Shown in pieces: positions 3,157-28,291 of a stretch of 37,045 bases of DNA. A program made the translations under genes and the position numbers. Location of the stretch: positions 1 to 37,045 of the forward strand of contig NZ_CAJQTX010000013.1 of the NCBI RefSeq assembly GCF_907163085.1, written 5' to 3'. The notes under the pieces were generated by a model. The model was given only the letters and a program-made list of their open reading frames with translations, searched no databases and was not told where the DNA came from. The stretch comes from Candidatus Accumulibacter sp. ACC003 (GTDB taxonomy: Bacteria > Pseudomonadota > Gammaproteobacteria > Burkholderiales > Rhodocyclaceae). Positions within the stretch are counted from its first letter, which is position 1. Every line of letters starts with the position of its first letter.

Positions 3157-3199
3157 TTGACGTGCATCAAATCAAAAGCCCGCCAAGAGCGGGTATCCT
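3157..3199 (+). promoter_or_regulatory. FNR/DNR-type box and -10 element upstream of the heme-copper operon
   Basis: TTGAC-GTGC-ATCAA (3157-3170) differs from the FNR/DNR consensus TTGAT-N4-ATCAA at a single base. A TATCCT hexamer (3194-3199) lies 23 bp beyond it, which puts the box near -41.5, the class II activator position. This suggests anaerobic or NO-dependent activation of the genes from 3291. A ribosome site GGAGG (3279-3283) precedes the first gene. No other obvious element was seen in the 2999-3290 intergenic region. Confidence 0.65.
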
Positions 3200-3470: not shown

Positions 3471-4022
3471 ATGAGTGCAATTCTGCCGCCGTCAGATCGG
3501 CTCTGGTGGAAGCAACCCATCGACAAGGTCGAATGGGCGTGGATAGCGATCGCCTTCGTGTGGGGGATGATCATGTTCGGAATGATGATTTACTGGCACG
3601 TCTACGGGAAGCAGAACCTGTCCAACGAGGCGTACAGGATCACCCCCGAGCTGTTCGCCGCCAAGGCCGAGAAATTCATCGCCGAGAACACCATCCGTAC
3701 CGAGACCGACCAGGACATCCCGGTGGTCAAGGTCCCCGCTGGTGGTGACGGCTACCTGATCGCCCGCCTGTGGGCCTGGTACCCGATCCTCGAACTCGAG
3801 GAAGGTCAAACCTACAAGATCCACCTGTCGTCGATGGATTACCTGCACGGCTTTTCGCTGCAACCGGTCAACATCAACATCGAGGTGATCCCCGGCTATG
3901 AGCACGTGGTCAAAATGACGCCGACCAAGGCAGGTACTTACGCCGTGGTCTGCAACGAATACTGCGGTATCGGCCATTCCTCGATGCTCGGCCGTATCTA
4001 CGTGACGAAAAAGGGGGAGTAA
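3471..4022 (+). CDS. CuA subunit II of a heme-copper reductase
   Basis: Membrane-anchored CuA domain that accepts electrons from cytochrome c and passes them to subunit I. At 183 aa it is short, like subunit II of ba3-type enzymes. One membrane helix lies at about residues 22-42, followed by a periplasmic cupredoxin domain. All CuA ligands are visible: His126 (LHGFS), Cys161, Glu163, Cys165, His169 and Met172 in 'CNEYCGIGHSSM'. A Shine-Dalgarno AGGGAG (3457-3462) precedes the ATG. It is followed after 4 bp by the catalytic subunit. A complete CuA site means the donor is a soluble or membrane cytochrome c, or another periplasmic carrier, and not quinol directly. Confidence 0.9.
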   Translation: MSAILPPSDRLWWKQPIDKVEWAWIAIAFVWGMIMFGMMIYWHVYGKQNLSNEAYRITPELFAAKAEKFIAENTIRTETDQDIPVVKVPAGGDGYLIARLWAWYPILELEEGQTYKIHLSSMDYLHGFSLQPVNINIEVIPGYEHVVKMTPTKAGTYAVVCNEYCGIGHSSMLGRIYVTKKGE

Positions 4023-4026
4023 ATAG

Positions 4027-5722
4027 ATGGCAACCACGTACCGTACCTGTCCGATCTCGGGAATGCAGTTTGAGGACCAGGCCGAGAAACTGATGCGCTG
4101 GAATGCCGTCGCCGGCGTCCTCTGGCTGCTCGTCGGCGGCGTCACCGCGCTGCTGGTGATCCTCACCCGCTGGCCGGCGATCAAGCTGCTGCCCGCCGAC
4201 CAGTTCTACCTGATCCTTACCGCCCACGGCATCGACATGCTGATCCTGTGGATCCTGTTCTTCGAAATGGCCGTTCTTTACTTCGCCTCATCGACGCTGC
4301 TGCGTTGTCGAATAGCGGCACCGAAGGTCGCCTGGCTAGGCTTCTGGCTGATGGTCGTCGGCGGCATCATCACCAACGTCGCGATCTTCCAGGGTGAATC
4401 GAGCGTGATGTTCACCTCGTACGTACCGATGCAGGCGCAACCGCACTTCTACCTGGGCATCATCCTGGTCGCCGTCGGTGCATTGCTCGGCACTTGCGTC
4501 TTCTTCGGCACGCTGGTCGTCGCCAAGAAGGACAAGACCTACCAGGGTTCGCTGCCACTGGTGACCTTCGGCGCGCTGACCGCGGCGATCATCGCCACCT
4601 TCACCATCCTCTCCGGCGCCGGCATCCTGATCCCGACCTTCTTCTGGTCGATGGGCTGGATCAAGGAAATCGACGCGCAGTTGTACCGCATGGTGTGGTG
4701 GGGCCTGGGGCACTCGTCGCAGCAGATCAACGTTGCCGCACACGTCTCGGTCTGGTATCTGACCGCCGCCGTGCTGTTCAACGCCAAGCCGCTGTCCGAG
4801 AAAGTTTCAGCGCTTTGCCTTCCTGCTCTACATCCTCTTCCTGCAACTGGCCAGCGCGCACCACCTGCTGTCCGACCCGGGCATGAGCGCCGAGTGGAAA
4901 GTGCTCAACACCTCGTACTTCATGTACTTCGCGGTGATGGCGTCGATGATCCACGGTTTCACGGTTCCCGGTGCGATCGAAGCCGCGCAAAGGCGCAAAG
5001 GTTTCACCAACGGCCTCTTCGAGTGGCTGCGCAAGGCTCCCTGGGGCAACCCGGTGTTCTCGGGCATGTTCATCTCGCTGGTCAGCTTCGGCTTCCTCGG
5101 CGGCATCTCCGGTGTCGTCCTCGGTACCGAGCAGATCAACATGCTGATGCACAATACCTTCTACGTCCCGGGCCACTTCCATACCACGGTTGTCAGCGGC
5201 ACGACACTGGCCTTCATGTCGATCACCTTCCTGCTCGTTCCGGTGCTCTTCCGGCGCGAGCTGATCCTGCCGAAGCTGTGCCAGATCCAGCCCTACCTGT
5301 ACGGCATCAGCATGGGCATTCTCGGCCTGGTGATGATGGGCGCCGGCACGCTGGGCGTTTCCCGCCGGCACTGGGACATGGCCTTCTCGGGCGCACCGTT
5401 CCAGTATGAATGGCCGGGCGCTGCCTACCTGATGATGGGTCTGACGGGTATCTTCGGGGTGCTCGCGGTGATCGGTGGCGGCCTGTGGATCCTGCTCATC
5501 GTCGGCTCACTGCTGTTCGGCAAGAAGCTTGACGGTGGCAAGGTCTCCGACAAGCCGACACCGATCCCGGCGAACACGCAGGCGGCATCGGCCGTCGCGC
5601 ATGGTAACGACCACGTGCCGGTCCCCGGCACCGTTGTCCTGGCTCTGTTGCTGTTCGTGACCTTCGTCCTCTACTACTTCGTGAACTGGAAGTACCTCTC
5701 CGAAGTCTGGCTGCTCAGCTGA
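4027..5722 (+). CDS. Heme-copper subunit I lacking the active-site Tyr (probable NO reductase, eNOR/sNOR-like; one frameshift)
   Basis: Catalytic subunit of a B-family-like heme-copper enzyme, about 564 aa after repair. Removing one A from the AAA run at 4801-4803 joins the frames (GAG AAG TTT CAG CGC). Ligands are complete: His67 (low-spin heme), His229 (CuB, 'WWGLGHSSQQIN'), His278-His279 (CuB), His383 (high-spin heme) and His385 (low-spin heme). The residue four after the helix-VI CuB histidine, the crosslinked Tyr of A- and B-type oxygen reductases, is Gln233. Loss of that Tyr is known from nitric oxide reductase branches of the superfamily; as I recall, Gln-type sites were described for eNOR. 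Neighbours supply CuA, heme A synthesis (ctaA, ctaB) and SCO. The alternative is an oxygen reductase using another Tyr; Tyr268 on helix VII, ten residues before His278, is the only nearby candidate I see. The frameshift is probably a sequencing error. Confidence 0.85.
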
Positions 5723-5866: not shown

Positions 5867-6763
5867 ATGCAATCCACGCTCCCACCGAACAGCACTTCCG
5901 GCTTTCCCTTCCGTGCCATTCTGGGCGTCTTCAAGTTGCGTATCGGCGTCGTCATCACCTTCACCGCGCTGGCTGGCCTGGCGGTCGGCCCCGGACCCAG
6001 CCTGAGCCCGCTGCAACTGCTGGTACTGACGCTTTCGGTGCTGATCTCGTCAGCCAGCGCCGGCGCCTTCAACCAGTATTACGAGCACGACAGCGACCAC
6101 CTGATGGCGCGCACCAGCAAGCGCCCCTTCGTCACCGGCGAACTGCGCCACGGCCCGATCTGGCTGCTGATCATTGCCGGCCTGATGGCGCTGTCGGTGG
6201 GCGCCGCCTGGCTGGCACTCAACGCCTGGTCGGCGCTCTTCGTCTTCCTCGGCGGCTTCTTCTACGCCATCGTCTATACCGTCTGGCTGAAGCGCCGGAC
6301 CTGGCTGAATATCGTCTTTGGCGGGCTGGCCGGTAGCTGGGCGGTACTCGCCGGCGCCACCGCCGCCGACCCGCAGGTCGGTGCGGTGCCGCTGGCGCTG
6401 GCGCTGGTCCTCTTTCTGTGGACGCCACCGCACTTCTGGAGTCTGGCGATCGCCTTCCGCGACGACTACGCGGCCGCTGGCGTGCCGATGCTGCCGGTCG
6501 TCGTCGGCGACCAGCGCGCCGCCCGGACGATCTTCTACAGCACCCTGGCGCTGGTTGCCGCGTCCTTGATTCCGCTGGCCTTCGGCCTCGGCGTGATCTA
6601 CTTCGTCGGCGCCGCCGTCGGCGGCTTCCTGTTCATCCACAAAGCCTGGCTGCTGACTCGCGAAACCAACCGCAAGACAGCGATGACCTGCTTTCATGCC
6701 TCGCTGATACAGTTGACACTGGTGCTGCTGGCAGCCATCGTGGACAGCCAATTGGCGCCTTGA
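5867..6763 (+). CDS. ctaB: Protoheme IX farnesyltransferase (heme O synthase)
   Basis: UbiA-superfamily membrane prenyltransferase that makes heme O from heme B and farnesyl diphosphate, the step before CtaA. The 298-aa product has the first Asp-rich substrate motif 'NQYYEHDSDHLMARTSKRP', the conserved 'LWTPPHFWSLA' loop, the second motif 'DDYAAAGVPMLPVVVG', and about nine membrane helices. It sits between the heme-copper subunits and a SCO1 homolog, a classic oxidase assembly order. As I recall, some NO-reducing members of the superfamily carry modified A-type hemes, which fits its position. Family assignment is secure. Confidence 0.95.
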   Translation: MQSTLPPNSTSGFPFRAILGVFKLRIGVVITFTALAGLAVGPGPSLSPLQLLVLTLSVLISSASAGAFNQYYEHDSDHLMARTSKRPFVTGELRHGPIWLLIIAGLMALSVGAAWLALNAWSALFVFLGGFFYAIVYTVWLKRRTWLNIVFGGLAGSWAVLAGATAADPQVGAVPLALALVLFLWTPPHFWSLAIAFRDDYAAAGVPMLPVVVGDQRAARTIFYSTLALVAASLIPLAFGLGVIYFVGAAVGGFLFIHKAWLLTRETNRKTAMTCFHASLIQLTLVLLAAIVDSQLAP

Positions 6764-6799: not shown

Positions 6800-7695
6800 A
6801 TGATTGGTCCTTGCGTTGGTCCGTACTTTCGCGCCCTGGTGGCGGCGCTGCTCTTTCTCGCCGCACCTGCGCTGCTTGCCGAGCCGGCAGCGGCCGAAGC
6901 TCCCAAGCTCACTGCTCGCCCACAAGGGCTGCTCAGCGGCGGCCTGACGCTGACCTCGCTCGACGAAAAAGCCGCCTTCGCTTTCTCGCAAAGCGTCATC
7001 GGCAAGCAGCTTGGCGACTTCGTTCTGCTCGATCGCCAGGGCCAACCCGTCGAGCTGTCGCGCTATCGTGGCAAGCCGCTGCTGGTCAACTTCATCTACA
7101 CGGCGTGTTTCCAGGTCTGCCCGACGACCACCCGTAACCTCCAGAAAGCGCTCGAAAACACCGTCGCCGTGATGGGAGCCGACCGCTTCAACGTGATCAG
7201 CATCGGCTTCAACCAGCCCTTTGACTCGCCGGCGGCCTTGAAGGATTTTTCGCGGCAGTACGGCATCGACCTGCCGAACTGGAACTTCCTCAGCCCGGCG
7301 CCGGCGATCGTCGACGCGCTGGCGGCACAATTCGGCTTTCGCTTCGTCGCCACCGCGGCCGGCTTCGACCACCTCAACCAGGTGACGATGGTCGACGCCG
7401 AAGGCAAGATCGTCCGCCAGGTCTACGGTGAAAATTCACCGCCGAAGACCTCGGCGAGCCACTGAAGGTGCTGATCACCGGTTCGGCGATTCCGCCCGAA
7501 GTGGGCACCCTGCAGGAGATCATGCAGCGCGTGCGCATCATCTGCTCGGTCTACGACCCGCTCACCGGCAAGTACCGCACCGACTACTCGCTGTACTTCA
7601 TGTTCGCCGGCTTCCTGACCTTCGTCGGCTTCATGATCTTCCTGTCGATCAATTTCTGGAAGAATCGGCGCCGCGAGCAGCCCAGGACGCCGTGA
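6800..7695 (+). CDS. SCO1/SenC family copper chaperone with C-terminal membrane helix (one frameshift)
   Basis: Thioredoxin-fold copper chaperone for CuA assembly. It has a signal peptide or anchor at residues 10-32, a redoxin domain with the metal site 'CFQVC' (CxxxC) and the conserved late His in 'FDHLNQVTMVD'. The frame breaks at GAAAATTC near 7431-7437. Adding one A restores 'FTAEDLGEPLKVLITG' and carries the protein to a stop at 7693-7695. The restored tail contains a membrane helix ('YFMFAGFLTFVGFMIFLSI') and a basic end, which makes it longer than the minimal SCO. The last four bases overlap the trmL start. A senC gene beside NOR-type heme-copper genes recalls the norSY-senC arrangement I remember from ammonia oxidisers. 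Confidence 0.88.
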
Positions 7696-8457: not shown

Positions 8458-8499
8458 TTGACTCGTGTCAAGTCGCCTCCTGCCCGCAAGCTATATAAT
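8458..8499 (+). promoter_or_regulatory. FNR/DNR-type palindrome and TATAAT upstream of the cytochrome b6 fusion operon
   Basis: TTGAC-TCGT-GTCAA (8458-8471) is a perfect palindrome of the FNR/DNR type. A perfect TATAAT (8494-8499) follows 22 bp later, so with a start near 8506 the box is centred at -41.5. This is nearly the same geometry as the element at 3157. The first gene starts at 8547. Confidence 0.7.
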
Positions 8500-8546: not shown

Positions 8547-10118
8547 GTGAGCGTCCACGCCGCATTGCGCAACGGCACGAAGAGCGTTTTTCTGCGTGTT
8601 GAAGAAGCCTTCGATACGCCGTTTGGGGGCCAGGACAACCCCCTGCGCCATCTCGGCGCGATGGCTCTCTATCTGCTGTGGATCATCGTCGGCAGCGGCC
8701 TCTATCTCTACACCGTCCTCGACACCGGCATCGACGCCGTTTACAGCTCGATCGGCTACCTCTCGAACGAGCAGTGGTACCTCGGCGGCGTTCTGCGCAG
8801 CCTGCATCGCTACGCTTCCGACGGCTTCATGCTGGTGATGCTGCTGCACCTCGTTCGCGAATGGTCGTACGGCCGCTACTTCGGCTTCCGCCTGTACTCG
8901 TGGATGACCGGCATCCCGCTGATCTGGCTGGCGTATATCGCGGGAATCGGTGGCTACTGGATCGTCTGGGACGAACTGGCGCAGCTTTCCGCCACCGCGA
9001 CCACCGAACTGCTCGACTGGCTGCCGATCTTCAGCGAGCCCTCGGCACGCAATTTCCTGTCGCCGAGCGCGCTCAGCGACCGCTTCTTCACGGTCCTGAT
9101 CTTCATCCATCTCGGCGTCCCGCTGCTCCTGATCCTCGGCCTGTGGGCGCACGTTCATCGCGTCAGCCACGTCGACTACCTGCCGACGCGACGCGTCATG
9201 CTGAGCACCGCCGCCGCCCTGACGCTGCTGGCGCTGTTCAGACCCGCGCTCAGCAACCCACCGGCCGATCTGGCGACCGTTCCCGGCGCACTCGCTTACG
9301 ACTGGTTCATCCTCTTCATTCATCCGCTGACCGACCTCAGCTCGCCGGCAATTGTCTGGTCGCTGCTCTTCGGATTGACGGCACTGCTCTTCGCGCTGCC
9401 GCTGCTACCGCACGCCAGGGCGCAGCCAATCGCCGTCGTCGACCCGGCCAACTGCACCGGCTGCGACCGCTGCCACGTCGACTGCCCCTACGCGGCGATC
9501 ACCATGGCGCCGCACCCGGGCCGACCCGGCTTGAAGCTCGCCGTCGTCGACGCCGACCTCTGCGCCAGTTGTGGCATCTGCGCCGGCTCGTGCCCATCAT
9601 CAACGCCTTTCCGCCGGCGCGAGACGCTGGTCACCGGCATCGACATGCCGCAACTGCCGGTCAACGCGCTGCGCCAGCAGCTCGAACACGCGCTGGCGCA
9701 ACTCGCCGGCCGCACGCGCATCGTCGTTTTTTCCTGCGCGCGCGGTGCCGAAGCCGCGCCACTGGCCGCCGCCGACACCGCGGTCATCGACCTGATCTGC
9801 GCCGGCATGTTGCCGCCAGCCTTTGTCGAATATGCGCTGCGCGGCGGCGCCGATGGCGTCGTCGTCGCCGCCTGCCGCGGCGGCGGTTGCGATTTCCGCC
9901 TCGGCGAGCGCTGGACCAGCGAGCGCCTGCGCGGCGATCGCGAACCGCACCTGCGCCACAACGTGCCGCCCTCGCGACTGCAACTGCTACTCGGCTCGGC
10001 GCACGACAGCGGCGCGCTGGCCGCCGCGGTAAGCGAACTCAGAACCCGGATCGAGACCCTCGAGGTTGCGACCGACCGCCTTCCACCCTATCTGCGGAGT
10101 GCTTCACATCATGCTTAA
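8547..10118 (+). CDS. Cytochrome b6 - 2x[4Fe-4S] ferredoxin - MvhD fusion protein
   Basis: A 523-aa fusion of three electron carriers. Residues 1-230 are a cytochrome b6-like diheme domain, with His pairs 87/101 and 188/202 each 14 residues apart, plus further helices to about 290. Residues 299-355 hold two [4Fe-4S] motifs (Cys303/306/309/313 and 339/342/345/349). Residues 390-475 resemble MvhD/FlpD, the [2Fe-2S] subunit that links electron-bifurcating heterodisulfide reductases to their donors: Cys397, Cys418 and 'AACRGGGC' (443, 448) with 'GGADGVVVAAC'. The start is a GTG at 8547 with AGAGG (8532-8536) upstream. It is the first gene of a three-gene operon under an FNR/DNR-type promoter. I infer electron exchange between the quinone pool and ferredoxin or a soluble partner; direction and partner are unknown. 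Confidence 0.88.
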   Translation: MSVHAALRNGTKSVFLRVEEAFDTPFGGQDNPLRHLGAMALYLLWIIVGSGLYLYTVLDTGIDAVYSSIGYLSNEQWYLGGVLRSLHRYASDGFMLVMLLHLVREWSYGRYFGFRLYSWMTGIPLIWLAYIAGIGGYWIVWDELAQLSATATTELLDWLPIFSEPSARNFLSPSALSDRFFTVLIFIHLGVPLLLILGLWAHVHRVSHVDYLPTRRVMLSTAAALTLLALFRPALSNPPADLATVPGALAYDWFILFIHPLTDLSSPAIVWSLLFGLTALLFALPLLPHARAQPIAVVDPANCTGCDRCHVDCPYAAITMAPHPGRPGLKLAVVDADLCASCGICAGSCPSSTPFRRRETLVTGIDMPQLPVNALRQQLEHALAQLAGRTRIVVFSCARGAEAAPLAAADTAVIDLICAGMLPPAFVEYALRGGADGVVVAACRGGGCDFRLGERWTSERLRGDREPHLRHNVPPSRLQLLLGSAHDSGALAAAVSELRTRIETLEVATDRLPPYLRSASHHA

Positions 10119-10608
10119 ACCCGCCGCCATCGTCGGCCAGGTGATCCTCTACGGCGCCTTTGCCGCTTTCATCGGCTACTTCGCCACCTCGCCGAAATAT
10201 CACCAGATCCCCGACGACGTCGCCCTGATCAAGCTTTCGATCAGCCACCTCGGCGACCGTGACTGTCGCAAACGGACACCCGAAGAGCTCGCCAAGATGC
10301 CGCCGAACATGCGCGCACCGATGGACTGCCCGCGCGAGCGCTCGGACATCAAGCTCGAAGTCGACCTCGACGGCAAGGATGTTTTGCGAACCGTGATGCA
10401 CCCCACCGGCCTCTACAAGGACGGCGTGTCAACCGTGTACAAGCGCTTCGAGGTCAAGGCCGGCACCCACCAGCTGGCGGTCAGGATGAACGACAAGCTG
10501 ATCAATCCCGGCTTCAAATTCGTCCAGGAGGAAGAGATCACTCTCGCCCCGCGGCAGGTGATGGTCATCGACTTCAATCCGGACCAGGGCGGCTTGTACT
10601 TCAAGTGA
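10111..10608 (+). CDS. Membrane-anchored protein of unknown function between two cytochrome b6 fusions
   Basis: A 165-aa protein with an N-terminal anchor (about residues 7-25, 'IVGQVILYGAFAAFIGYF') and a soluble beta-rich domain. There are two cysteines (Cys52 in 'DRDCRK', Cys73 in 'MDCPRE') and repeated basic-acidic strands ending 'DFNPDQGGLYFK'. It overlaps the upstream fusion gene by 8 bp, so translation is coupled. I recognise no family. Position between two related membrane fusions suggests a structural or assembly subunit of the same complex, facing the periplasm if the anchor is uncleaved. The two Cys could form a disulfide or bind a cofactor, but no CxxCH or Rieske motif is present. 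Confidence 0.82.
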   Translation: MLKPAAIVGQVILYGAFAAFIGYFATSPKYHQIPDDVALIKLSISHLGDRDCRKRTPEELAKMPPNMRAPMDCPRERSDIKLEVDLDGKDVLRTVMHPTGLYKDGVSTVYKRFEVKAGTHQLAVRMNDKLINPGFKFVQEEEITLAPRQVMVIDFNPDQGGLYFK

Positions 10609-10704
10609 TCGCCACCACTGCCAATCACTCCAGACGCTGCTGCCGGCACATGCCCCCGCCAACAGGCACGCACGCCTAATCAATTTCCCGAGCTGACATC
10701 AAAA

Positions 10705-12624
10705 ATGGTCAAAATCATTCAACAAGTCATCCGCTGGCTGTTCATGCGTATCGAGAACGTGTTCAATATCGCTTTTGGCGACAAGTTGAACCCCTTCTAC
10801 CACCTCGGCACGATCAGTTTCTGGCAATTCTGGTTGCTGCTGGGCTCGGGTCTCTATCTCTACATCTTCGCCGACACCGGCGTTCATGACGCTTTTGAGT
10901 CGGTCGAGAGCATCACCCACAACCAGTGGTGGCTGGGCGGCATCCTGCGCAGCGTGCACCGCTACGCCACCGACGGCATGATCCTGACGATGCTGTTGCA
11001 CATGCTGCGGCACTTCGCCTACGACCGCTATCGCGGCTTCCGCTCTTTTTCCTGGCTGACCGGCGTCGCGCTGCTGTGGCTGATCTACATTGCCGGCGTC
11101 AACGGCTTCATGCTCGTCTGGGACAAGCTGGCGCAATTCGTGGTCATCGCCACCGCCGAATGGTTCGACATCCTGCCGATGTTCAACGGCACGCTGATCC
11201 GCAACTTCCTGTTCCTCGAAAGCGTCAACAGTCGCCTGTTCACGCTGCTCGCCTTCATGCACATCGGCGTCCCGCTGATCATCGCCATCGTGATGTGGGT
11301 ACACGTCCAGCGTGTCCCGCGCGCGCACATCAATCCGCCACGGCCGGTCGCCATCGCCGTGACACTGATGTTCGTGATGCTCGCGCTGGTCAAGCCGATT
11401 CTCAGCCAGGGCGGCGAAGCCGACATGTCGGTGGTACCGACCGGCATCGCTTTCGACTGGTTCGAGTTGCCGGTGCTGGCGCTGGTCTATGTCACCAATC
11501 CGCTGCATCTCTGGTTCTGGGTTCTCGGCCTGACCGGCCTGCTCTTCCTCGTTCCCTGGCTACCGCCGAAGCGGCTCGGATCGGCCAAGGCACTGACCTC
11601 GATCACTTTCCAGCCCGATCACAAATCGGTCAGCGCGCGCTTTGGCGAAACGCTGCTCGACGCCGGCCTGCGCCAGGACATCAACCTGCCCTACGAATGC
11701 CGTAACGGCGGCTGCGGCGTCTGCAAATGCACCGTCCTGCAAGGCAAGGTCGACCCCGGCCTCTACCAGCCGAGCGCACTCTCCGACGCCGAACTGGCGC
11801 AAGGCAAGGTTCTGTCGTGCTGCGCCACCGCGCTCGAGGACGTAATCATCGAGTACCAGGCCAGCACCGTCGTCAGCGGCATCCAGGAATACACCGCGCG
11901 CGTCGTCAAGATGGAGAAGCTCACCTACGACGTGATGCGCGTCCTGCTCAAGCTGCCCGAAGGCCAGCAGATCAAGTTCAAGGCCGGCCAGTACATCAAC
12001 ATCATCCTCGACGACGAGCAACGGCGCGCCTTCTCCTTCGCCAACCCGCCGCACGAACCCGAGTTCGTCGAACTGCAGATCCGCCTGATGACCGGCGGCA
12101 AGTTCACCACGCACGTCTTCGAGAAGATGAAGGAAGGCGACGAAGTCCGCTTCGAAGGCCCGATCGGCGACTTCAGCCTGCGCGAATCCGAGCGCCCGAT
12201 CGTCTTCGTCGCCGGCGCCACCGGCTTCGCACCGGTCAAGAGCATGGTCGAAGACGCCTTCCAGCGCGGCCTCAAGCGCCAGATCCACCTCTACTGGGGT
12301 GTCAAGACGCTGCAGGACCTCTACCTGCCGGAACTGCCGGCGCGCTGGGCGAAAGAACACGACAACTTCCACTTCATTCCGGTACTCTCCGAACCCGAGT
12401 CGGAAACCGCCTGGAGCGGCCGCACCGGCCTGGTCCACGAAGCCATCCTCGAAGACTTCCCCGAGCTCAAGGAACACGAAATCTACGCCTGCGGCTCGGT
12501 GCGCATGGTCGAAGCGATCTTCCCCTTCCTCAAGCAGCACGGCGCCGAAGACGGCGCGTGTTTCTCGGACGCCTTCAGCGTCTCGGCCAGGTCGATGGCG
12601 TTCCAGCCAAGACAGGGTTCGTAG
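10705..12624 (+). CDS. Cytochrome b6 - [2Fe-2S] ferredoxin - FAD/NAD(P) reductase fusion protein
   Basis: A 639-aa fusion. Residues 1-230 are a diheme cytochrome b6 domain (His85/99 and His186/200), clearly paralogous to the gene at 8547. Residues 295-380 are a plant-type [2Fe-2S] ferredoxin (Cys332, 337, 340 and 372, in 'CRNGGCGVC' and 'LSCC'). The rest is a ferredoxin-NAD(P) reductase module with the flavin motif 'RAFSFAN', the nucleotide loop 'GATGFAPVKSM' and the C-terminal 'ACGSVRMVE'. This matches my memory of the novel cytochrome b/b6 fusion in the Accumulibacter metagenome, proposed to move electrons between quinol and NAD(P)H and allow anaerobic TCA flux. Direction in vivo is not settled by sequence. 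It is the last gene of the operon, 96 bp after the small anchored protein. Confidence 0.9.
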   Translation: MVKIIQQVIRWLFMRIENVFNIAFGDKLNPFYHLGTISFWQFWLLLGSGLYLYIFADTGVHDAFESVESITHNQWWLGGILRSVHRYATDGMILTMLLHMLRHFAYDRYRGFRSFSWLTGVALLWLIYIAGVNGFMLVWDKLAQFVVIATAEWFDILPMFNGTLIRNFLFLESVNSRLFTLLAFMHIGVPLIIAIVMWVHVQRVPRAHINPPRPVAIAVTLMFVMLALVKPILSQGGEADMSVVPTGIAFDWFELPVLALVYVTNPLHLWFWVLGLTGLLFLVPWLPPKRLGSAKALTSITFQPDHKSVSARFGETLLDAGLRQDINLPYECRNGGCGVCKCTVLQGKVDPGLYQPSALSDAELAQGKVLSCCATALEDVIIEYQASTVVSGIQEYTARVVKMEKLTYDVMRVLLKLPEGQQIKFKAGQYINIILDDEQRRAFSFANPPHEPEFVELQIRLMTGGKFTTHVFEKMKEGDEVRFEGPIGDFSLRESERPIVFVAGATGFAPVKSMVEDAFQRGLKRQIHLYWGVKTLQDLYLPELPARWAKEHDNFHFIPVLSEPESETAWSGRTGLVHEAILEDFPELKEHEIYACGSVRMVEAIFPFLKQHGAEDGACFSDAFSVSARSMAFQPRQGS

Positions 12625-18567: not shown

Positions 18568-19752
18568 TCATGCGCTCTCTTCGACACCGGGACCGCAGTC
18601 GTTGAAAAGCGCGATGTAGGGTGCATAACGGAAACGCCGGTTGCGTGCATAGCCCGTCATCTCGCTGAGCACACCCAGTTCGACCAGGCGGGAAACGAGA
18701 TTATTGGCCGCGGGGTAGGTGGTGCCGGTCATCTGCTGGATATCGTTCACGGCGACGATCGGCCGGTCGAACAAGGACTCCAGGACCTTATGACCGCTAC
18801 CGGCCGCTCGGCCCAGCCGATCTGCAATCGCGGCGCGGTGCTGCTCGCGCAGTAGGAGGATACGCCGCGCGGTTTCAACCGCCTCACCCCCCACCTCGAT
18901 GACGCCGCGCAGAAAGAACCCCAGCCAGGCTTCCCAGGCGCCGCGCTCGCGCACCGCTTGCAGATGCTCGTAGTAAGCCTGTCGATGTCGTTTGAAGTAG
19001 TGCGAAAGGTACAGCACCGGCTTGTGCAGCTCGCCGCACTCGGTGAGAAGAAAGGTGATCAGCAGCCGGCCAACACGCCCATTGCCGTCGAGAAAAGGGT
19101 GGATGGTCTCGAACTGTACATGCGCCAACGCGATCTTGACCAGTGGCGGCAAGCTGTCGTCGGCGTGCAGGAACTTCTCCAGATCACTCAAGGCTTCGGG
19201 AACGACGTGATGCGGCGGCGGCACGAAGCTCGCCGTGCTGAGCGTGCAGCCCGCGGAGCCGATCCAGTTCTGGCTGGTGCGAAGCTCGCCCGGTTGCAGC
19301 TCGCCACCACGCACGCCGTGCATCAGCTCGGCGTGGATCTCGCGGATCAGCCGCACCGAAACCGGCAACTCGCGTAGCCGCGCGAGGCCGTGGTTCATCG
19401 CACGTACATAGTTGATGACCTCATCGACGTCGCGCGGCAGATCCTGGTCGAACATCTGCGCCTCGGCGGCAAGCAAATCTTGTAGCGAGCTTTGGGTGCC
19501 TTCAATCTGGCTGGAGAGCACCGCCTCCTTACGCACGTACATAAAGACGAAGAGGTCGGGGTTCGGCAGCGTCAGCACCGAACCGTCGAGCCGTCCAAGC
19601 GCCCGATCCGCTGCCGACAGCAGACTCGGCAGCTCGCCGGTGAACTCCAATGCCGGCTCTGGCGGAAGACGCGCCGGGATGAAGGCGCGGTAGCCGGTCG
19701 CTTGGCTGATGTAGCGTCCGGCACGCGTCGAGGTTTCGGCACCAATCACCAT
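18568..19752 (-). CDS. Fic family protein (AMPylation domain) with C-terminal winged helix
   Basis: A 394-aa stand-alone Fic protein. The catalytic motif 'HPFLDGNGRVGR' (HPFx[D/E]GNGRxxR) is complete. The inhibitory motif 'SSQIEGT' ((S/T)xxxEG) lies N-terminal to it, which makes it a class II, self-inhibited Fic protein. The last 80 residues look like a DNA-binding winged helix ('VNDIQQMTGTTYPAANNLVSRL'). Such proteins transfer AMP to Tyr/Thr/Ser hydroxyls and are often mobile and autoregulated. A strong Shine-Dalgarno (AGGGAGGG) precedes the ATG at 19752, and an inverted repeat at 19769-19795 lies in the leader. It sits in the accessory island between two conflict-type genes. Confidence 0.92.
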   Translation of the reverse strand: MVIGAETSTRAGRYISQATGYRAFIPARLPPEPALEFTGELPSLLSAADRALGRLDGSVLTLPNPDLFVFMYVRKEAVLSSQIEGTQSSLQDLLAAEAQMFDQDLPRDVDEVINYVRAMNHGLARLRELPVSVRLIREIHAELMHGVRGGELQPGELRTSQNWIGSAGCTLSTASFVPPPHHVVPEALSDLEKFLHADDSLPPLVKIALAHVQFETIHPFLDGNGRVGRLLITFLLTECGELHKPVLYLSHYFKRHRQAYYEHLQAVRERGAWEAWLGFFLRGVIEVGGEAVETARRILLLREQHRAAIADRLGRAAGSGHKVLESLFDRPIVAVNDIQQMTGTTYPAANNLVSRLVELGVLSEMTGYARNRRFRYAPYIALFNDCGPGVEESA

Positions 19753-21883: not shown

Positions 21884-24311
21884 CAGACAACCTGATCTCG
21901 GCGCCATGACGTTTGCACGATCGTCATTCTAAATCCGTAGCAGTTCATGAGGTTAGGTTGCCGGACGAGCAGCAGTTCGGGTTTGTGGCGGGGGGGTGTG
22001 TCGGATATTGCGAAGATACCGAGAAAGGTAGATAGTACGCGTTTTTGCTCGGCGCCACGCGGAGCTTGCTGGAGATTCGGATGCCCCAACTGCTGTTGCC
22101 GATTTTTCCTGATGCCGTCACGCCGGTCAAGGAACTGCTGTCTGTCGGGAAAGAGGATGGACAAGTCGTGTATTTCCACGGGGTCCTGCCGGTGTTCAGT
22201 CATGCCGAGGACGATCTGGCGACGTTCCGGATGATTACGGCGCAGTTTATCGCGCAGGGTCATTTACGCGTGGTGGACGTGTCGCGCGCCTTCGGGGTGC
22301 CCGCGTTGAGTGTCAAGCGTGCGTTGAAGCGCTATCGGCAGGAGGGGCCGAAAGGATTCTATGTTCCGCCGCGGCGCCGTGGTCCGGCGGTGCTGACGGC
22401 AGAGGTGTTGAAGCAGGCGCAGGCCTTGTTGGACGAGGGCCAAACGGTACCCAGCGCGGCGGCTGAACTGGGGATCAAAAGCGACACCCTGTCGAAAGCG
22501 GTGCGCGCTGGGCGGCTGCATGTTCCGGCGGCGAAGGGGACCTGCGCGCTCGTCGTGAGCACCAAAAGCGAGCGGAGCGCACTCGACAGCGCCGCCCCGA
22601 TGGGGGTTGGGGCCAGCAACGTGGAAGCCCGGGTGGCGGCTAGCGTGGGTGGGCTGAATGCGGTGCTCCCGCAGTTCCAGTTGGCCGTCGACGTGCCGCG
22701 TGGCGGCGTGTTGTTTGCGCTGCCCGCCTTGCTGGCAGTTGGGCTGCTCGAAGGAGCGGAGGGGCTTCCCCTGCCACCGGGCTACTATGGGATTGACAGT
22801 CTGTTGATGTTGATCGCCTTCATGGCCTTGGCACGGCTGGAATCGGTCGAGTCCCTGCGCACTTGTGCGCCTGGCGAATGGGGCAAACTGCTGGGTCTGG
22901 ATCGGATTCCCGAAGTGCGCACCCTGCGCGAGAAGATTCAGCTCCTGAGTCAGGGTGATCAGGCCGAAAAATGGAGTGCCGATTTGTGTCGGCGCTGGAT
23001 GGCGGCGGCGCCGGCACAAGCGGGCATCCTTTACGTCGACGCGCATGTGCGGGTGTATTACGGCGAGCAGACCAAGCTGCCGCGCCACTACATCGCGCGG
23101 CAGCGGCTGTGCCAGCGGGCGACGGCCGATTACTGGGTCAACGCGATCGACGGGCAGCCCTTCTTTCGGGTCACGCAAGCCGTCGATCCCGGCCTGATCA
23201 AGGTCCTCGAGGGCGAGATTCTACCCCGTCTGGAACGGGATATCCCGGGCCAGCCGAACGCCGAAGTGCTGGCAGCCGAACCGTTGCGCCATCGCTTCAC
23301 CCTGGTTTTCGATCGCGAAGGCTATAGTCCGGAGTTGTTCAAACGCCTGAAGGCTCGTCGCATTGCCTGTCTCTCCTATCGCAAGTACCCCGGTGACGAT
23401 TGGTCAGCCGAGGAGTTTGTCGACGGAACGGTCGAGTTGCGCAGCGGTGAACGGGTACGCATGCAACTCGCCGAACGGGGCACGCTTCTCGGTGGCGTGT
23501 TGTGGGTACGCGAGATACGCAAGCTCTGTCACACCGGTCGCCAGGTCGCCCTGATCAGCACGGATTACCAATCCGGCATAGGGCTCCTGGCGGCCACCCT
23601 GTTCGCCCGGTGGTCTCAGGAAAATTTCTTCAAGTATGCCCGTGAACACTTTGCCCTGGACCGCTTGGCCGACTATCAGACCGAACAAATTCCTGATACC
23701 GCACGCGTCGTTAACCCGGCTCGCAGAACCCTCGACGGCCAGGTGCGCTCGCTGACCAGCAAGCTCAGCCGCCGGCTCGCCCAATTCGGCGCGCTCAACC
23801 TCAACGAGACGATTGACCCCGTGAAAGTCGATGCTTTTGTCGCAAAAAAGGCCGCGGCCCACGACGAGATCGAACATCTGCAAGACGAACTCAAGACCCT
23901 GAAGGAACAACGCAAGGAGACACCCTCTCATCTCGACATTAAGGACTTGCCCGAAGAAAACCGATTTCGCCGGCTGAGCACCCACAGCAAGCAGCTGCTC
24001 GACACGCTCAAGATGATTGCCTATCGCGCCGAAACGGCCATGGCCAACGTCCTGGCACCCTTGCTCGCGCGCCCGGACGAGGCACGCAGCTTGCTACGCG
24101 CGATCTACACGACCGAAGCGGATTTGCTCCCCGACGCTCAGGCTGGAACCTTGACCGTACGCCTGCACCACATGGCCCATGGCGTGTCTGACCGCGCCGT
24201 CCGAAAACTCTGTGACGAGTTGAACTCTACCGAGACTGTCTTCCCACGCTCCAACCTCCGCTTGATCCTGCAACTCGGTACATCGCAAAATCCGTGAGAT
24301 CAGGTTTTCTG
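21884..24311 (+). mobile_element. 2428-bp insertion element with 16-bp terminal inverted repeats
   Basis: The left end CAGACAACCTGATCTC (21884-21899) and the inverted right end CAGAAAACCTGATCTC (24296-24311) match at 15 of 16 bases. The element is flanked by a direct repeat AGGAT (21879-21883 and 24312-24316). Copy A of the HD-GYP gene shows the uninterrupted site (CCAGGATCGGTCTGCC), which confirms the boundaries. It carries one large transposase gene. I could not assign an IS family with certainty. Confidence 0.9.
22081..24297 (+). CDS. Large putative DDE-type transposase (738 aa)
   Basis: The only gene of the insertion element. The N-terminal 170 residues contain two helix-turn-helix-like parts ('VDVSRAFGVPALSVKRALKRY' region and 'SAAAELGIKSDTLSKAV'). 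The middle has probable catalytic acids in 'ILYVDAHVRVYYG' and 'LVFDREGYSPELF', and later 'LISTDYQSG'. The C-terminal part is helical, with a likely coiled coil ('DEIEHLQDELKTLKEQRKE'). The ATG at 22081 is preceded by GGAG; a TTG at 22045 in frame is less likely. The product ends 14 bp before the right terminus. The D-D-E assignment is by eye. Unusually long for an IS transposase. Confidence 0.82.
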   Translation: MPQLLLPIFPDAVTPVKELLSVGKEDGQVVYFHGVLPVFSHAEDDLATFRMITAQFIAQGHLRVVDVSRAFGVPALSVKRALKRYRQEGPKGFYVPPRRRGPAVLTAEVLKQAQALLDEGQTVPSAAAELGIKSDTLSKAVRAGRLHVPAAKGTCALVVSTKSERSALDSAAPMGVGASNVEARVAASVGGLNAVLPQFQLAVDVPRGGVLFALPALLAVGLLEGAEGLPLPPGYYGIDSLLMLIAFMALARLESVESLRTCAPGEWGKLLGLDRIPEVRTLREKIQLLSQGDQAEKWSADLCRRWMAAAPAQAGILYVDAHVRVYYGEQTKLPRHYIARQRLCQRATADYWVNAIDGQPFFRVTQAVDPGLIKVLEGEILPRLERDIPGQPNAEVLAAEPLRHRFTLVFDREGYSPELFKRLKARRIACLSYRKYPGDDWSAEEFVDGTVELRSGERVRMQLAERGTLLGGVLWVREIRKLCHTGRQVALISTDYQSGIGLLAATLFARWSQENFFKYAREHFALDRLADYQTEQIPDTARVVNPARRTLDGQVRSLTSKLSRRLAQFGALNLNETIDPVKVDAFVAKKAAAHDEIEHLQDELKTLKEQRKETPSHLDIKDLPEENRFRRLSTHSKQLLDTLKMIAYRAETAMANVLAPLLARPDEARSLLRAIYTTEADLLPDAQAGTLTVRLHHMAHGVSDRAVRKLCDELNSTETVFPRSNLRLILQLGTSQNP

Positions 24312-25375: not shown

Positions 25376-25999
25376 TTACTGGCCGAGCAGCTGCTCGATA
25401 ATCGGCGCCAATCGCGCCTCGTCGAGCCGTCCCAGGTGGCTGTCCGCGAAACGCCCGTCGCGGCCGATGATCACCGTGTACGGCAAGGCCTTCGGTTGCA
25501 GGCCGGCGTTCGGGATGGCGTTCGGGATGGCGTTCGGGATGGCGTCCCTTCCGCCGACCAGCAGCGGGTAGGCCAGCGGCGTCGAGTCAGCCAGGCTGGC
25601 GGCGAAGCGGCGCATCTTGTCGAGGTCGTCGATGCCGATACCGACGAACTGTACGCCCTGCGCCGCGTAGCGGTTTTGCAGGCGCGAGAAGGCGGGCATT
25701 TCCTCGACGCAGGGTTGGCACCAGCTGGCCCAGTAATTGACCACCAGCACCTTGCCTCGCCACTGCGCGATCGCCTGCGGGCGGCCATCGAGGTCGTCGA
25801 GCGTCAGCGCCATGATCGCGTCGACCTCGGCCTGCGCTTCTGCCGGCGACAGTTGCGGCATCGTACGCAGGCCGGGCGGAATGCTGTCGCCGGGCGGCAA
25901 GGCGTCGTGGCTGGCCAGGCGATAGGCGAGTAGACCGACGGTAGCCATGGTCAGCACGCCGGCGAGCACCGCCAGCAGCAGCGCGCGCCCCGGTGTCAT
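25376..25999 (-). CDS. TlpA-like membrane-anchored thioredoxin
   Basis: A 207-aa periplasmic thiol-disulfide protein: an N-terminal anchor (residues 5-27) and a thioredoxin fold with the active site 'WCQPC' in 'NYWASWCQPCVEEMPAFSRL', cis-Pro in 'ALPYTVII'. The ATG overlaps the stop of the upstream heme-copper gene by 4 bp, so the two are co-translated. TlpA/SCO-like proteins often keep CuA or CuB sites reduced during oxidase assembly, which fits the neighbour. An in-frame 12-bp unit is repeated three times (25506-25541), giving an IPNA repeat in a surface loop. Confidence 0.88.
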   Translation of the reverse strand: MTPGRALLLAVLAGVLTMATVGLLAYRLASHDALPPGDSIPPGLRTMPQLSPAEAQAEVDAIMALTLDDLDGRPQAIAQWRGKVLVVNYWASWCQPCVEEMPAFSRLQNRYAAQGVQFVGIGIDDLDKMRRFAASLADSTPLAYPLLVGGRDAIPNAIPNAIPNAGLQPKALPYTVIIGRDGRFADSHLGRLDEARLAPIIEQLLGQ

Positions 26000-27360
26000 C
26001 GCTGGCGTCGCCGCGACATCGCCCGCAGGCAAACCAGCACGAACATCAGGCCGCCGATCACCGCGATCAGGCCGCCGAGTCCCATCATTCCCATGCCGAT
26101 CTTCTGCGGCAAGGTGGTCAGCATCTGTTCGGCACCGGCGACCTTGCGCTGTACGCCGTAGCCGCCCGACCACGCCAGACCGAGGACATGAATCAGTTGC
26201 CCGCCGCCATAGACGTAGGGCTGCCAGAGCGCCATGCGGCCCTGCGGGCGGTCGAAACCGAGGCTGGGGAGCAGCGCGTAGGCCAGGCCCATGAAGGCCA
26301 GCGTGACGCCGACCGTCGACCCGTGGTAGTGCGCCGGTATGACGACGTTGACGCCGTGGATCATGTAACCGAGGACGCCGCCGAGCGCAAAGAGGCTGAA
26401 CGAAGCGACCAAGGCCGACTTGGCCGGCGCCGCCGGCAGTCCGCGCACTCCCCACAGCGACCAGGCGCCAAGGACGATCAGCGGCGCCATGTAGGGATGA
26501 CCCCATTCCATCAGCTTGGCAAACACTTCGACGTGCGGCAGCGAGCCGACCGGCAGCAGCAGGTAGATCGCCGGCACCACCAGCAGCGGCAGCGCGCCGA
26601 CCAGGAACAACACCGAAACCGCGCGCGGCGACGCCGCCGACGGACGCCCGAGATGACCGGCAATCCACAGCCAGGCGACGACCATCAACAGCGCGTGCTG
26701 AAACTGCAGGGTGTGCCCGCCACCCCAGAACAGCACTTCGTAATAGATCGTTCCCTCGACCACCGGCACCAGTGCCCACGACCAGTAGAAAGCGGCCAGG
26801 GCCAGGAAGGCGGCGAAGGCGCCGAGGAAAGCGCCGAGGCGCAGCGGCTCGCCGAGAAAACGTTGCGGCCAGGTAGTGACCAACGCGCGCAACACGGTCA
26901 GGCTCATGCCGGCGCCGAAGGTCAGCAGCGCGGTGAAGAACAGCGGCTGTTTGAGCACCGGGATATAGTTGTTGAGCACCGGCTCGGCGCCCGGGAAAAA
27001 TGGCGAGACGGTCATCAGCGCCGTCCCCAGCGCCGCCAGCGCAAAACCGCTCCAGCCCAGCCACGCCAGACCGGGGCCACCGAGCGCGCTCCAGATCACC
27101 GCCGCGAAGGCCATGAACCACACCGCCACCGACAGATCGACGTGCACCACCAGCGCCGCGCGGAACAGGTCCTTGAGCGGAAAGACGTCCTGGATACCGG
27201 GCGTGCGTGACAAGACCAGCAGCACCGCCAGCAGGCCCGAACCGATCAGCGCCAGCACGCCCAGCCACAACCAGGCGCGCGCCAGGCTCGTCGGCGCCCC
27301 GGAAGAAATGCTCGGCAGCAAGGGTGCCGCCGAAGAAACAGTCACTGCTTGCGAATCCAC
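25996..27360 (-). CDS. Divergent heme-copper subunit I lacking Tyr and one CuB His (probable NOR-type)
   Basis: A 454-aa integral membrane protein with about 12 helices and a heme-copper fingerprint: His73 ('VVHVDLSV', low-spin heme), His216 on helix VI in 'WGGGHTLQFQ', His288 on helix VII ('MEWGHPYMAP'), and His344/His346 in 'IPAHYHGST'. The position four after His216 is Phe220, not Tyr, and the usual HisHis of helix VII is Gly287-His288, so one CuB ligand is missing; Glu285 is nearby. As I recall, gNOR-type NO reductases show altered CuB ligands, but I cannot decide the family. No CuA or cytochrome c subunit is adjacent. A GTG at 27360 with GAGG upstream is my chosen start; an ATG at 27429 in frame is the alternative. 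TlpA follows; a DNR-like regulator is divergent. Confidence 0.8.
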   Translation of the reverse strand: MDSQAVTVSSAAPLLPSISSGAPTSLARAWLWLGVLALIGSGLLAVLLVLSRTPGIQDVFPLKDLFRAALVVHVDLSVAVWFMAFAAVIWSALGGPGLAWLGWSGFALAALGTALMTVSPFFPGAEPVLNNYIPVLKQPLFFTALLTFGAGMSLTVLRALVTTWPQRFLGEPLRLGAFLGAFAAFLALAAFYWSWALVPVVEGTIYYEVLFWGGGHTLQFQHALLMVVAWLWIAGHLGRPSAASPRAVSVLFLVGALPLLVVPAIYLLLPVGSLPHVEVFAKLMEWGHPYMAPLIVLGAWSLWGVRGLPAAPAKSALVASFSLFALGGVLGYMIHGVNVVIPAHYHGSTVGVTLAFMGLAYALLPSLGFDRPQGRMALWQPYVYGGGQLIHVLGLAWSGGYGVQRKVAGAEQMLTTLPQKIGMGMMGLGGLIAVIGGLMFVLVCLRAMSRRRQR

Positions 27361-27598
27361 CGCCGCCTCGCGCAAAAAAACCTCGCGAGTATAGGGCCAG
27401 GCGGCGCGATATGCCAAACGCTGCTGCACCGATGATCGCTACCAACAAATTCCATACGCAAGTCGTTTATCATATCCGTTCAACTCGGCCAAGCCCTGGC
27501 AAGGCGGCATCGCAAGGATCTTGCGACTTGCTTGCCCCTGACCGGAACACATGCGAATATTGGCTTCCTGCTTTTTGCTGAATGTTCGGAAACTGCCC

Positions 27599-28291
27599 AT
27601 GACCGTTGCTCCACACGGCATCAACATCGAAGGGCTGCTGGCACACGTGCCGCTGTTCAACGAATTGGCGACAGAAGAAATAGCGCGTCTGGCGCGTGGC
27701 ACGCGTGAAATCAACGCCAGCCGTGGCGACATCCTGTTCCACAAGGGCGACACGCCGACCGGTTTCTACCTGATCGTTTACGGCCAGGTGAAACTCGCGT
27801 TCACCTCGTCACAAGGCGGCGAGAAGGTCATCGCGATCCTGCCGCAAGGAAACACCTTCGGCGAAGCGGTGATGTTCTCGGACAAGCCGTTCATGGTTTA
27901 CGCGCAGACGCTTGCCGATTCGCTGGTGCTGCACATTGCCAAGACGGCGATCCTCGCCGAACTCGACCGCGACCCGCAACTCGGTCGCCGGATGATTGCC
28001 GGCCTGTCGAAGCGCTTGCATCAGGTGATGAACGACGTCGAGTCGTATTCGCTGCATTCGGGTCGCCGACGAATCATTGGCTATCTGCTGCGCGAGCACG
28101 AAGGCGCCAGCGAGCAATCCGTAACCATCACGCTGCCGACCAACAAGGGTGTCATTGCCTCGCGCCTGAACCTGACACAAGAACACTTTTCACGCATCCT
28201 GCATGAACTGTCCGAAAAAGGCCTGATCGTCGTTGACGGCCGAAGAATCCACATCGCCGATGTCGCTGCACTACGTGCCTACGATCTCTGA
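27599..28291 (+). CDS. Crp/Fnr family regulator, DNR-like
   Basis: A 230-aa transcription factor: an N-terminal cyclic-nucleotide-type sensor barrel ('RGDILFHKGDTPTGFYLIVYG', 'FGEAVMF'), a long dimerisation helix, and a winged helix with recognition segment 'TQEHFSRILHEL'. The E-x-x-S-R residues are those that read TTGAT half-sites in FNR. There are no Cys ligands for an FNR [4Fe-4S] cluster. The sequence layout, including 'RLHQVMNDVESYSLHSGRRR', resembles the NO-responsive DNR of Pseudomonas. The ATG at 27599 is preferred over 27551. It is divergent from the NOR-like gene at 25996 and may control the boxes at 3157 and 8458. Confidence 0.88.
   Translation: MTVAPHGINIEGLLAHVPLFNELATEEIARLARGTREINASRGDILFHKGDTPTGFYLIVYGQVKLAFTSSQGGEKVIAILPQGNTFGEAVMFSDKPFMVYAQTLADSLVLHIAKTAILAELDRDPQLGRRMIAGLSKRLHQVMNDVESYSLHSGRRRIIGYLLREHEGASEQSVTITLPTNKGVIASRLNLTQEHFSRILHELSEKGLIVVDGRRIHIADVAALRAYDL

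Follow-up and report, generated by a model that had tools for sequence, protein, structure and literature searches.

The residue that distinguishes the catalytic sites of heme-copper enzymes is, according to the available text of PMC8756737, glutamine in eNOR, tyrosine in the oxygen reductases, glutamate in cNOR and qNOR, asparagine in sNOR and CuANOR, and aspartate in gNOR; the same text states that many eNOR homologues seem to be misannotated as cytochrome c oxidases. Here we describe a gene cluster of Candidatus Accumulibacter sp. ACC003 (assembly GCF_907163085.1, contig NZ_CAJQTX010000013.1; the analysed stretch of 37,045 bases within the 5.39 Mb genome is referred to as the window), in which the genes of an eNOR-like oxidase are accompanied by genes for two cytochrome b fusion proteins, A and B, a small membrane-anchored protein, S, and a further protein of the COX1 superfamily, H. 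It is highly probable that A, S, B and H belong to the eNOR system.

The window oxidase shares with eNOR, a heme-copper enzyme related to the B family, the COX1 glutamine in place of the cross-linked tyrosine, the metal-site histidines and a subunit II of the CuA type, while here the cluster also encodes A, B, S and the CuB-less H. The fusions resemble the anammox complexes Kuste4569-4574 and Kustd1480-1485, which, as presented in the accessible part of PMC12954380, combine a b6-like cytochrome b, subunit IV-like helices and a cytoplasmic iron-sulfur/flavin NAD(P) module, and for which, as here, coupling to nitrogen-oxide reduction is proposed. Unlike these complexes, the proteins of the window are single-chain fusions, MvhD takes the place of a flavin reductase at the end of one module, and neither a Rieske protein nor a multiheme cytochrome c was found among the window cluster genes scanned. 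Common to A and the HdrA2/MvhD proteins are the two [4Fe-4S] ferredoxin and the MvhD domain following it, with conserved cysteines; A differs in that it lacks the HdrA flavin domain and is attached to a membrane cytochrome b, and no HdrA gene was found (the search did not cover HdrBC or hydrogenase genes). ExtP of the ExtP/ExtQ pair from selenite/tellurite reduction operons comes nearest, by a match far under its cut-off, to the cytochrome b of A and B, but those models have no fused cytoplasmic module, and the BenC/NqrF-type NADH reductases have the [2Fe-2S]-FAD-NAD order in common with B, which differs by its fused diheme cytochrome b. No published account of the cytochrome b-ferredoxin-MvhD architecture, of the S partner or of their association with eNOR was found in a search that did not extend to the main eNOR paper. 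Thus, eNOR is already known, and its association with A and S in Pseudomonadota is what seems to be added here.

The genes of the two fusions and of S are as follows.

8547..10118, forward strand: A, 523 aa, GTG start; b6-type diheme cytochrome b (about residues 20-290), 2[4Fe-4S] ferredoxin (295-352) and MvhD/FlpD domain (409-505).
10111..10608, forward strand: S, 165 aa; single membrane helix and Ig-like beta-sandwich, with C52 and C73 invariant and no recognised cofactor site.
10705..12624, forward strand: B, 639 aa; b6-type cytochrome b, [2Fe-2S] ferredoxin and FAD/NAD(P) reductase, BenC-like.

The first-pass annotation of this sequence had proposed both fusions, and Pfam confirms their domain content and coordinates. 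In A, Cytochrome_B is matched at residues 35-203 (whole-protein E 3.1e-13), 4Fe-4S domains of the Fer4 type at 295-351 and FlpD/MvhD at 409-505 (1.8e-12; 47.8 bits against a cut-off of 22.3), in agreement with the proposed identity of its C-terminus. The NCBIfam profile of HdrA2 matches residues 296-507 of A with its C-terminal ferredoxin and MvhD part (1.3e-23, 83 bits), far under the whole-protein cut-off of 1100 bits. The domains of B, all above the cut-off, are Cytochrome_B (26-201), Fer2 (303-376), FAD_binding_6 (398-490) and NAD_binding_1 (501-605). Among NCBIfam families, the reductase half of B is most similar to BenC-type NADH reductases, under the equivalog cut-off, and ExtP is the top match for the cytochrome b parts of both proteins, far under its cut-off. 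PMC2289847, as far as its accessible text goes, mentions "a novel cytochrome", which may be B.

When 51 A proteins were combined into a profile, its positions of about 17-290 matched structures of cytochrome b6 and bc1, those of about 384-501 MvhD chains, and the part in between polyferredoxins or the HdrA C-terminus. The structural model of A (mean pLDDT 86, pTM 0.83) has six helices of membrane length and resembles the cytochrome b of bc1 complexes (Foldseek, best E 6.2e-7). Invariant in all 51 aligned proteins are the heme histidines H87, H101, H188 and H202, the eight ferredoxin cysteines, the MvhD cysteines C397, C418, C443 and C448, which we take to be the ligands of a [2Fe-2S] cluster, and the pairs W141-D142 in the cd-loop and D252-W253 in the ef-loop. 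The same positions are invariant in 19/19 rows of an alignment comprising the window and 18 A proteins of 16 further loci, fifteen of them outside the order. The histidines of transmembrane helix (TM) 4 are one residue further apart in the rows shown for loci outside the order; a search for this pair at the 13-residue spacing missed it in 13 of the 16 loci of the phylum-search set (fifteen loci assigned to the same phylum only, and L143 from within the order), although both are aligned in every row, the rows shown having one extra residue between them. Thus, the four-helix b6 core with its four heme histidines is present in every A protein aligned, and B aligned likewise. Instead of a PEWY-type ef loop both proteins carry xDWF, namely YDWF in A and FDWF in B, aligned with PVWY in the genome's own bc1 cytochrome b; the pattern DW[FY], sought within a fixed residue range, was found in 67/89 A and 81/81 B proteins. 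The topology of b6/subunit IV is established and would put the fused modules on the cytoplasmic side.

The genome contains a single FlpD. A itself was found in all 27 genomes of the genus that were searched (in two of them as partial matches), and a genome scan for its relatives yielded 150 contig stretches, of which 80 were kept; hence its architecture is not a chance occurrence. In a bc1-rooted tree of the cytochrome b parts (77 of 192 sequences left after thinning at 80% identity), B forms a single clade (28 tips, support 1.0) inside A, the root being unreliable (0.84, long outgroup). This placement would be in line with a duplication of A followed by a swap of the cytoplasmic module.

The first-pass annotation had also assigned the small anchored protein to the fusions, and S is indeed encoded in 78 of the 80 kept loci. 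At E 0.001 it matches no Pfam or NCBIfam family. Its model (mean pLDDT 93) consists of a helix predicted at residues 4-26 and a confident beta-sandwich, for which a fold search gave no significant match (best E 5.8e-3). We rejected S as a Rieske protein, a cupredoxin or a cytochrome, there being no such motif, Pfam family or significant fold match, and as a FixG C-terminal domain, the FixG family being absent from its profile matches. Two loci (L109 and L112) have two copies of S, one behind each cytochrome b fusion, which suggests that S pairs with each cytochrome b.

Upstream of A the window contains the oxidase genes and those of two assembly proteins.

3471..4022, forward strand: eNOR subunit II (COX2) of the CuA type, with one N-terminal helix; Pfam COX2, CuA motif CNEYCGIGH.
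4027..5722, forward strand: eNOR subunit I (COX1), in two frames in this assembly (about 4027-4818 and 4799-5722), with GHSSQQ present.
5867..6763, forward strand: CtaB, heme O synthase (UbiA family).
6800..7692, forward strand: SCO1/SenC copper assembly protein, in two frames in this assembly.

In ba3 oxidases the tyrosine four residues after the TM6 histidine is the cross-linked one. COX1 of the window aligns with these oxidases, and at the site of its glutamine the ba3-type structures 4gp4 and 7deg carry tyrosine. The motif GHS[SA]QQ, with glutamine for tyrosine, was observed in 69/69 COX1 homologues with matches of at least 1350 nt, and in the form GHSSQQ in the window and in all ten phylum-set loci with COX1. 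The metal-site histidines (TM6 H, TM7 HH and TM10 HxH; AHH, PGHFH) are present together with a CuA subunit II, except that the frame of L050 stops before TM10; the COX2 motif CNE[YF]CG..H was found in 10/10 distant loci that hold COX2. Judged by these residues, the oxidase of the window is eNOR-like and should reduce nitric oxide (NO).

The frames of COX1 (4027-5722) and SCO (6800-7692) are split relative to intact homologues. Assembly or sequencing errors are the probable cause, since the frames are likewise broken in a partial second copy on contig C3. This copy, at the start of C3 (62-1431), is very similar to window positions 3471-5722, suggesting that the window's contig (C13) overlaps or duplicates the end of C3. 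The COX1 family of the genome further comprises, by our reading of the sequences, aa3 and cbb3 oxidases, and H. Thus, eNOR is the only heme-copper candidate for an NO reductase that was found in this genome (non-heme-copper NO reductases were not searched for), which also has three places with a cytochrome d1 domain, the best of them (1.9e-156) NirS-like. According to the accessible text of PMC6446978, norBC occurs in none of the Accumulibacter genomes and norZ in only a few, a ba3 oxidase is annotated in all clades, its operon is inferred to be regulated by FNR, and in strain UW-1 its transcripts are high anaerobically and drop upon aeration. We equate this ba3 oxidase with the present COX1 by family and genus, not by locus tags; COX2 of the window is probably the cbaB subunit of the published annotation.

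The cluster recurs far beyond the genus, with the common layout COX2-COX1-CtaB-SCO-A-S-(H)-B and a minority layout B-S-A-H, often with CtaA nearby, in Sulfuritalea, Comamonas, Simplicispira, Rubrivivax and others. In addition to S, the fetched stretches of the 80 kept loci hold the cytochrome b of B in 74 cases, COX1 in 69, SCO in 77 and H in 54; in the two loci without S and the six without B the fetched sequence stops before the place that the gene occupies in relatives. The fusions are not an obligate pair: L107, from a genome 98% complete, retains A, S and H and lacks B, L102 and L103 retain B, S and H and lack A, and B is present on the fetched stretch in only one of the 16 phylum-set loci (L143). 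All 16 of these loci contain A and S, while COX1 was observed on the fetched stretch in ten and H in three (L141, L142 and L143). Thus, A and S are near-constant partners of eNOR, and B and H look like lineage additions. L141 and L142 have two tandem A fusions beside S and H, and two A matches were also seen in two further genomes of the same family (G429, G499).

Beyond the order, what recurs is the set eNOR-CtaB-SCO-A-S, frequently in the vicinity of nirS or of genes for heme d1. In 10/16 phylum-set loci the fetched stretch also carries cytochrome d1-domain genes, accompanied in several cases by the heme d1 genes NirJ or NirDL; seven of the ten are more than 50% identical to NirS of L145 (the query itself included), and those of L139, L143 and L144, 25-28% identical, stand beside NirJ. 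The other 93 loci scanned, all of the order set, yielded two cytochrome d1 hits (L053, 67%; L060, 24%) and one NirJ (L103). In six phylum-set loci (L138, L140, L141, L142, L146 and L150) COX1 and COX2 are absent from the fetched stretch around A. Five of the six genomes carry eNOR elsewhere, in G299 at a distance of about 20 kb on the contig of A, in G283, G387, G268 and G367 on another contig; in the sixth, G452 (74% complete), it was not found at the threshold used.

The same association was observed at the level of whole genomes, in samples of 200 genomes from the order (with a threshold of E <= 1e-50 for A and B) and 398 from the phylum. Only the best few first-look candidates were scored per genome (three in most phylum genomes), so that a weaker second gene, B for instance, may have been missed where it was not found. 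In the order, A or B occurs in 20 genomes, H in 20 and eNOR COX1 in 19, and all 19 eNOR genomes hold A or B, and H as well; one further genome (G189) has A/B only and one (G181) H only. In the phylum, A occurs in 34 genomes and eNOR in 30, with 29 shared. Hypergeometric p values, which ignore relatedness beyond the genus and count in the window's own genome, are 1e-25 for the order and 8e-38 for the phylum, and counted by genus the overlap is 14/15 (p 5e-21).

Two putative regulatory sites are located in front of the oxidase genes and of A.

3157..3170, forward strand: FNR/DNR-like dyad TTGACGTGCATCAA, upstream of the eNOR genes, with one mismatch to TTGATNNNNATCAA.
8458..8471, forward strand: perfect FNR/DNR-type dyad TTGACTCGTGTCAA, before A, with TATAAT at 8494-8499.

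The palindrome TTGAYNNNNRTCAA was found at most 300 nt upstream of the A match in 62/104 loci, against a background of 0.024 per 300 nt over all loci, and in 57 of these 62 its first base lies 77-132 nt ahead of the match. It is rare upstream of the other genes (B, 6/88; H, 1/50; COX2, 2/75; S, 1/109). Presumably, the palindrome before A is a site of the FNR/DNR type, and its centre-to-centre spacing of 32 nt to TATAAT is, we assume, that of class II FNR promoters.

The conserved cluster, the near-exclusive co-occurrence, the d1 and heme d1 neighbours, the dyad before A in the order and the invariant redox ligands together argue for a partnership with eNOR. In our preferred reading, to which we give an even chance, A and S serve eNOR as dedicated partners for membrane electron transfer and pass electrons outward, B and H having joined them in the betaproteobacterial lineage. 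Both modules, 2[4Fe-4S] with MvhD in A and [2Fe-2S]-FAD-NAD in B, would be cytoplasmic and in electron exchange with heme bH, followed by bL, and with the quinone site of the cytochrome b (the WD of the cd-loop and the DWF of the ef-loop). A would thereby take electrons from a ferredoxin-like carrier and B from NAD(P)H, delivering them to the quinone or the periplasmic side to feed NO reduction and bypassing complexes I and bc1 when oxygen is low or NO abundant, with S as a periplasmic scaffold docking the cytochrome b to the reductase. The outward direction, taken separately, is tentative and falls slightly short of even; in its favour are the similarity of the reductase half of B, greatest to NADH-oxidising reductases, the downhill course of the reaction and the lack, on the p-side, of any visible high-potential acceptor of single electrons for bifurcation.

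Several observations weigh against this reading. The eNOR assignment is drawn from residues rather than from a tree with reference eNORs or from activity, while the published annotation of these genes, in the accessible part of PMC6446978, is a ba3 oxidase; the same source reports that in strain UW-LDO-IC the ba3 transcripts respond little and are grouped with FNR-repressed genes, which tells against simple anaerobic induction. The dyad precedes 60/88 A genes of the order set (the window included) and only 2/16 of the phylum set. A was found without a detected eNOR in five phylum genomes (G352, G368, G376, G452 and G499; G376 with 6% contamination, the other four 69-82% complete), and one genome of that sample (G303) has eNOR without A. 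Electron transfer and complex formation are deduced from sequence; no p-side acceptor is evident, S being without recognised cofactor ligands. Energy would be wasted by an outward flow from NAD(P)H or ferredoxin, A has bc1-like quinone-site features that a plain wire does not need, and the presence of CtaB and SCO beside A would suit a role in maturation equally well.

Alternatively, NO reduction could drive a bifurcation of quinol at the p-side site of the cytochrome b, one electron entering the high-potential eNOR branch and the other passing via bL and bH to the iron-sulfur module and from there to ferredoxin (A) or NAD(P)+ (B). In line with this are the b6/bc1 fold with its four heme histidines and invariant W141-D142 and D252-W253, the alignment of the ef loop of A and B with the PVWY of bc1, the low-potential cytoplasmic module in every A and B compared, and the anammox Rieske/cytochrome b complexes with NAD(P) reductases, for which the available text of PMC12954380 proposes coupling to nitrite reduction. 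However, the glutamate and proline of PEWY are replaced in A and B, neither a Rieske protein nor a periplasmic cytochrome is among the window cluster genes scanned, and H, the only other redox protein, is off the fetched stretch in 13/16 phylum-set loci (the rest of these genomes was not searched for H). Pfam found no Rieske or cytochrome c1/f in the window cluster genes or in two extra genes of L077, the scan not extending to the extra genes of other loci or the rest of the genome. What argues most strongly against bifurcation, which we regard as unlikely, is that no Rieske protein is among the genes scanned and that S is devoid of cofactor ligands. A Rieske-free form, in which NO reduction would drive quinol electrons to ferredoxin (through MvhD of A) and NAD(P)+ (through B), possibly in an A/B heterodimer with H as the high-potential acceptor, is quite unlikely. 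A and S could instead be a maturation factor of eNOR, a transmembrane reductase powering copper or heme insertion or heme modification, by analogy to CcoG, the polyferredoxin protein of cbb3 oxidase. This would suit the usual position of A and S behind CtaB and SCO, both assembly genes, the frequent proximity of CtaA, and the build of S, with its membrane anchor, its beta-sandwich and its two invariant cysteines; A also accompanies 29 of 30 eNOR genomes in the phylum sample. Nevertheless, a copper reductase would hardly require the residues of a quinone site and a strictly conserved set of four b-heme ligands, S does not match the FixG C-terminal family, and two further genomes (G057, G136) resemble G303 in keeping eNOR while A is missing, which is the strongest point against an obligatory maturation role. 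We consider this explanation unlikely.

The first-pass annotation had envisaged a free-standing complex exchanging electrons among quinol, ferredoxin and NAD(P)H for the anaerobic feast-famine metabolism of Accumulibacter. The domain content, the adjacency of A and B in Accumulibacter and the anaerobically high "ba3" transcripts of UW-1 (in the accessible text of PMC6446978) are compatible with it, and the idea of an electron link between quinone and cytoplasm holds; the setting does not, since the linkage to eNOR is conserved in many other organisms, A and B are separable and no Hdr partner was found. The feast-famine role received no specific support, and the explanation as a whole is very improbable. 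Flavin bifurcation of the Hdr type was rejected: the HdrA2 profile meets the C-terminal part of A and gives nine short matches in the genome, none over the cut-off, and hence the MvhD domain of A stands without a heterodisulfide reductase partner. The last alternative, that A, S and B are mere neighbours functionally unrelated to the oxidase genes, could appeal to the six loci without COX1 and COX2 on the fetched stretch, but with eNOR elsewhere in five of those six genomes and the p values given above it is hardly credible.

H is encoded at some distance from the other genes, divergently from a putative regulator.

25996..27429, reverse strand: H, COX1 superfamily; H95, H238, H366 and H368 kept, the TM7 CuB histidines not; start codon uncertain.
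27551..28291, forward strand: Crp/FNR-family regulator, divergent from H; FtrB/FNR-like, under the equivalog cut-offs.

In 38 aligned H proteins the four histidines are invariant and the TM7 pair is not conserved, hence the set of CuB histidines is incomplete. Many distant betaproteobacterial loci have H between S and B, and loci of Propionivibrio and of the Sulfuritalea type have it on the opposite strand, downstream of B. In the window, a Transposase_29-family transposase (22045-24297) and a Fic-domain protein (18568-19752) are encoded between the A-S-B genes and H, and an insertion may have separated H from A-S-B in this lineage. A more distant homologue of H is encoded in L105 (4985-6220), in the genome G181, which is without A, B and eNOR at the thresholds used. 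L077 has two genes between H and B, one for a membrane protein without a family (10644-11756, reverse strand) and one of the DUF2249 family (11775-12122, reverse strand), and L075 has an NnrS gene (233-1402) 5.6 kb before A; both NnrS and DUF2249 go with NO metabolism.

If the assignment is true, the "ba3 oxidase" of all Accumulibacter clades would be an NO reductase. This would explain how genomes with an NO-forming NirS can be without norB/norZ, and would bear on the release of N2O from wastewater plants. H, given its tight co-occurrence with eNOR in the order, would be worth study in its own right. The near-constant partners A and S would make the electron supply to the eNOR family testable, and they would offer a genetically simple relative of bc1/b6f, apparently Rieske-free, in which the cytochrome b is hard-wired to modules of the ferredoxin or NAD(P)H type.

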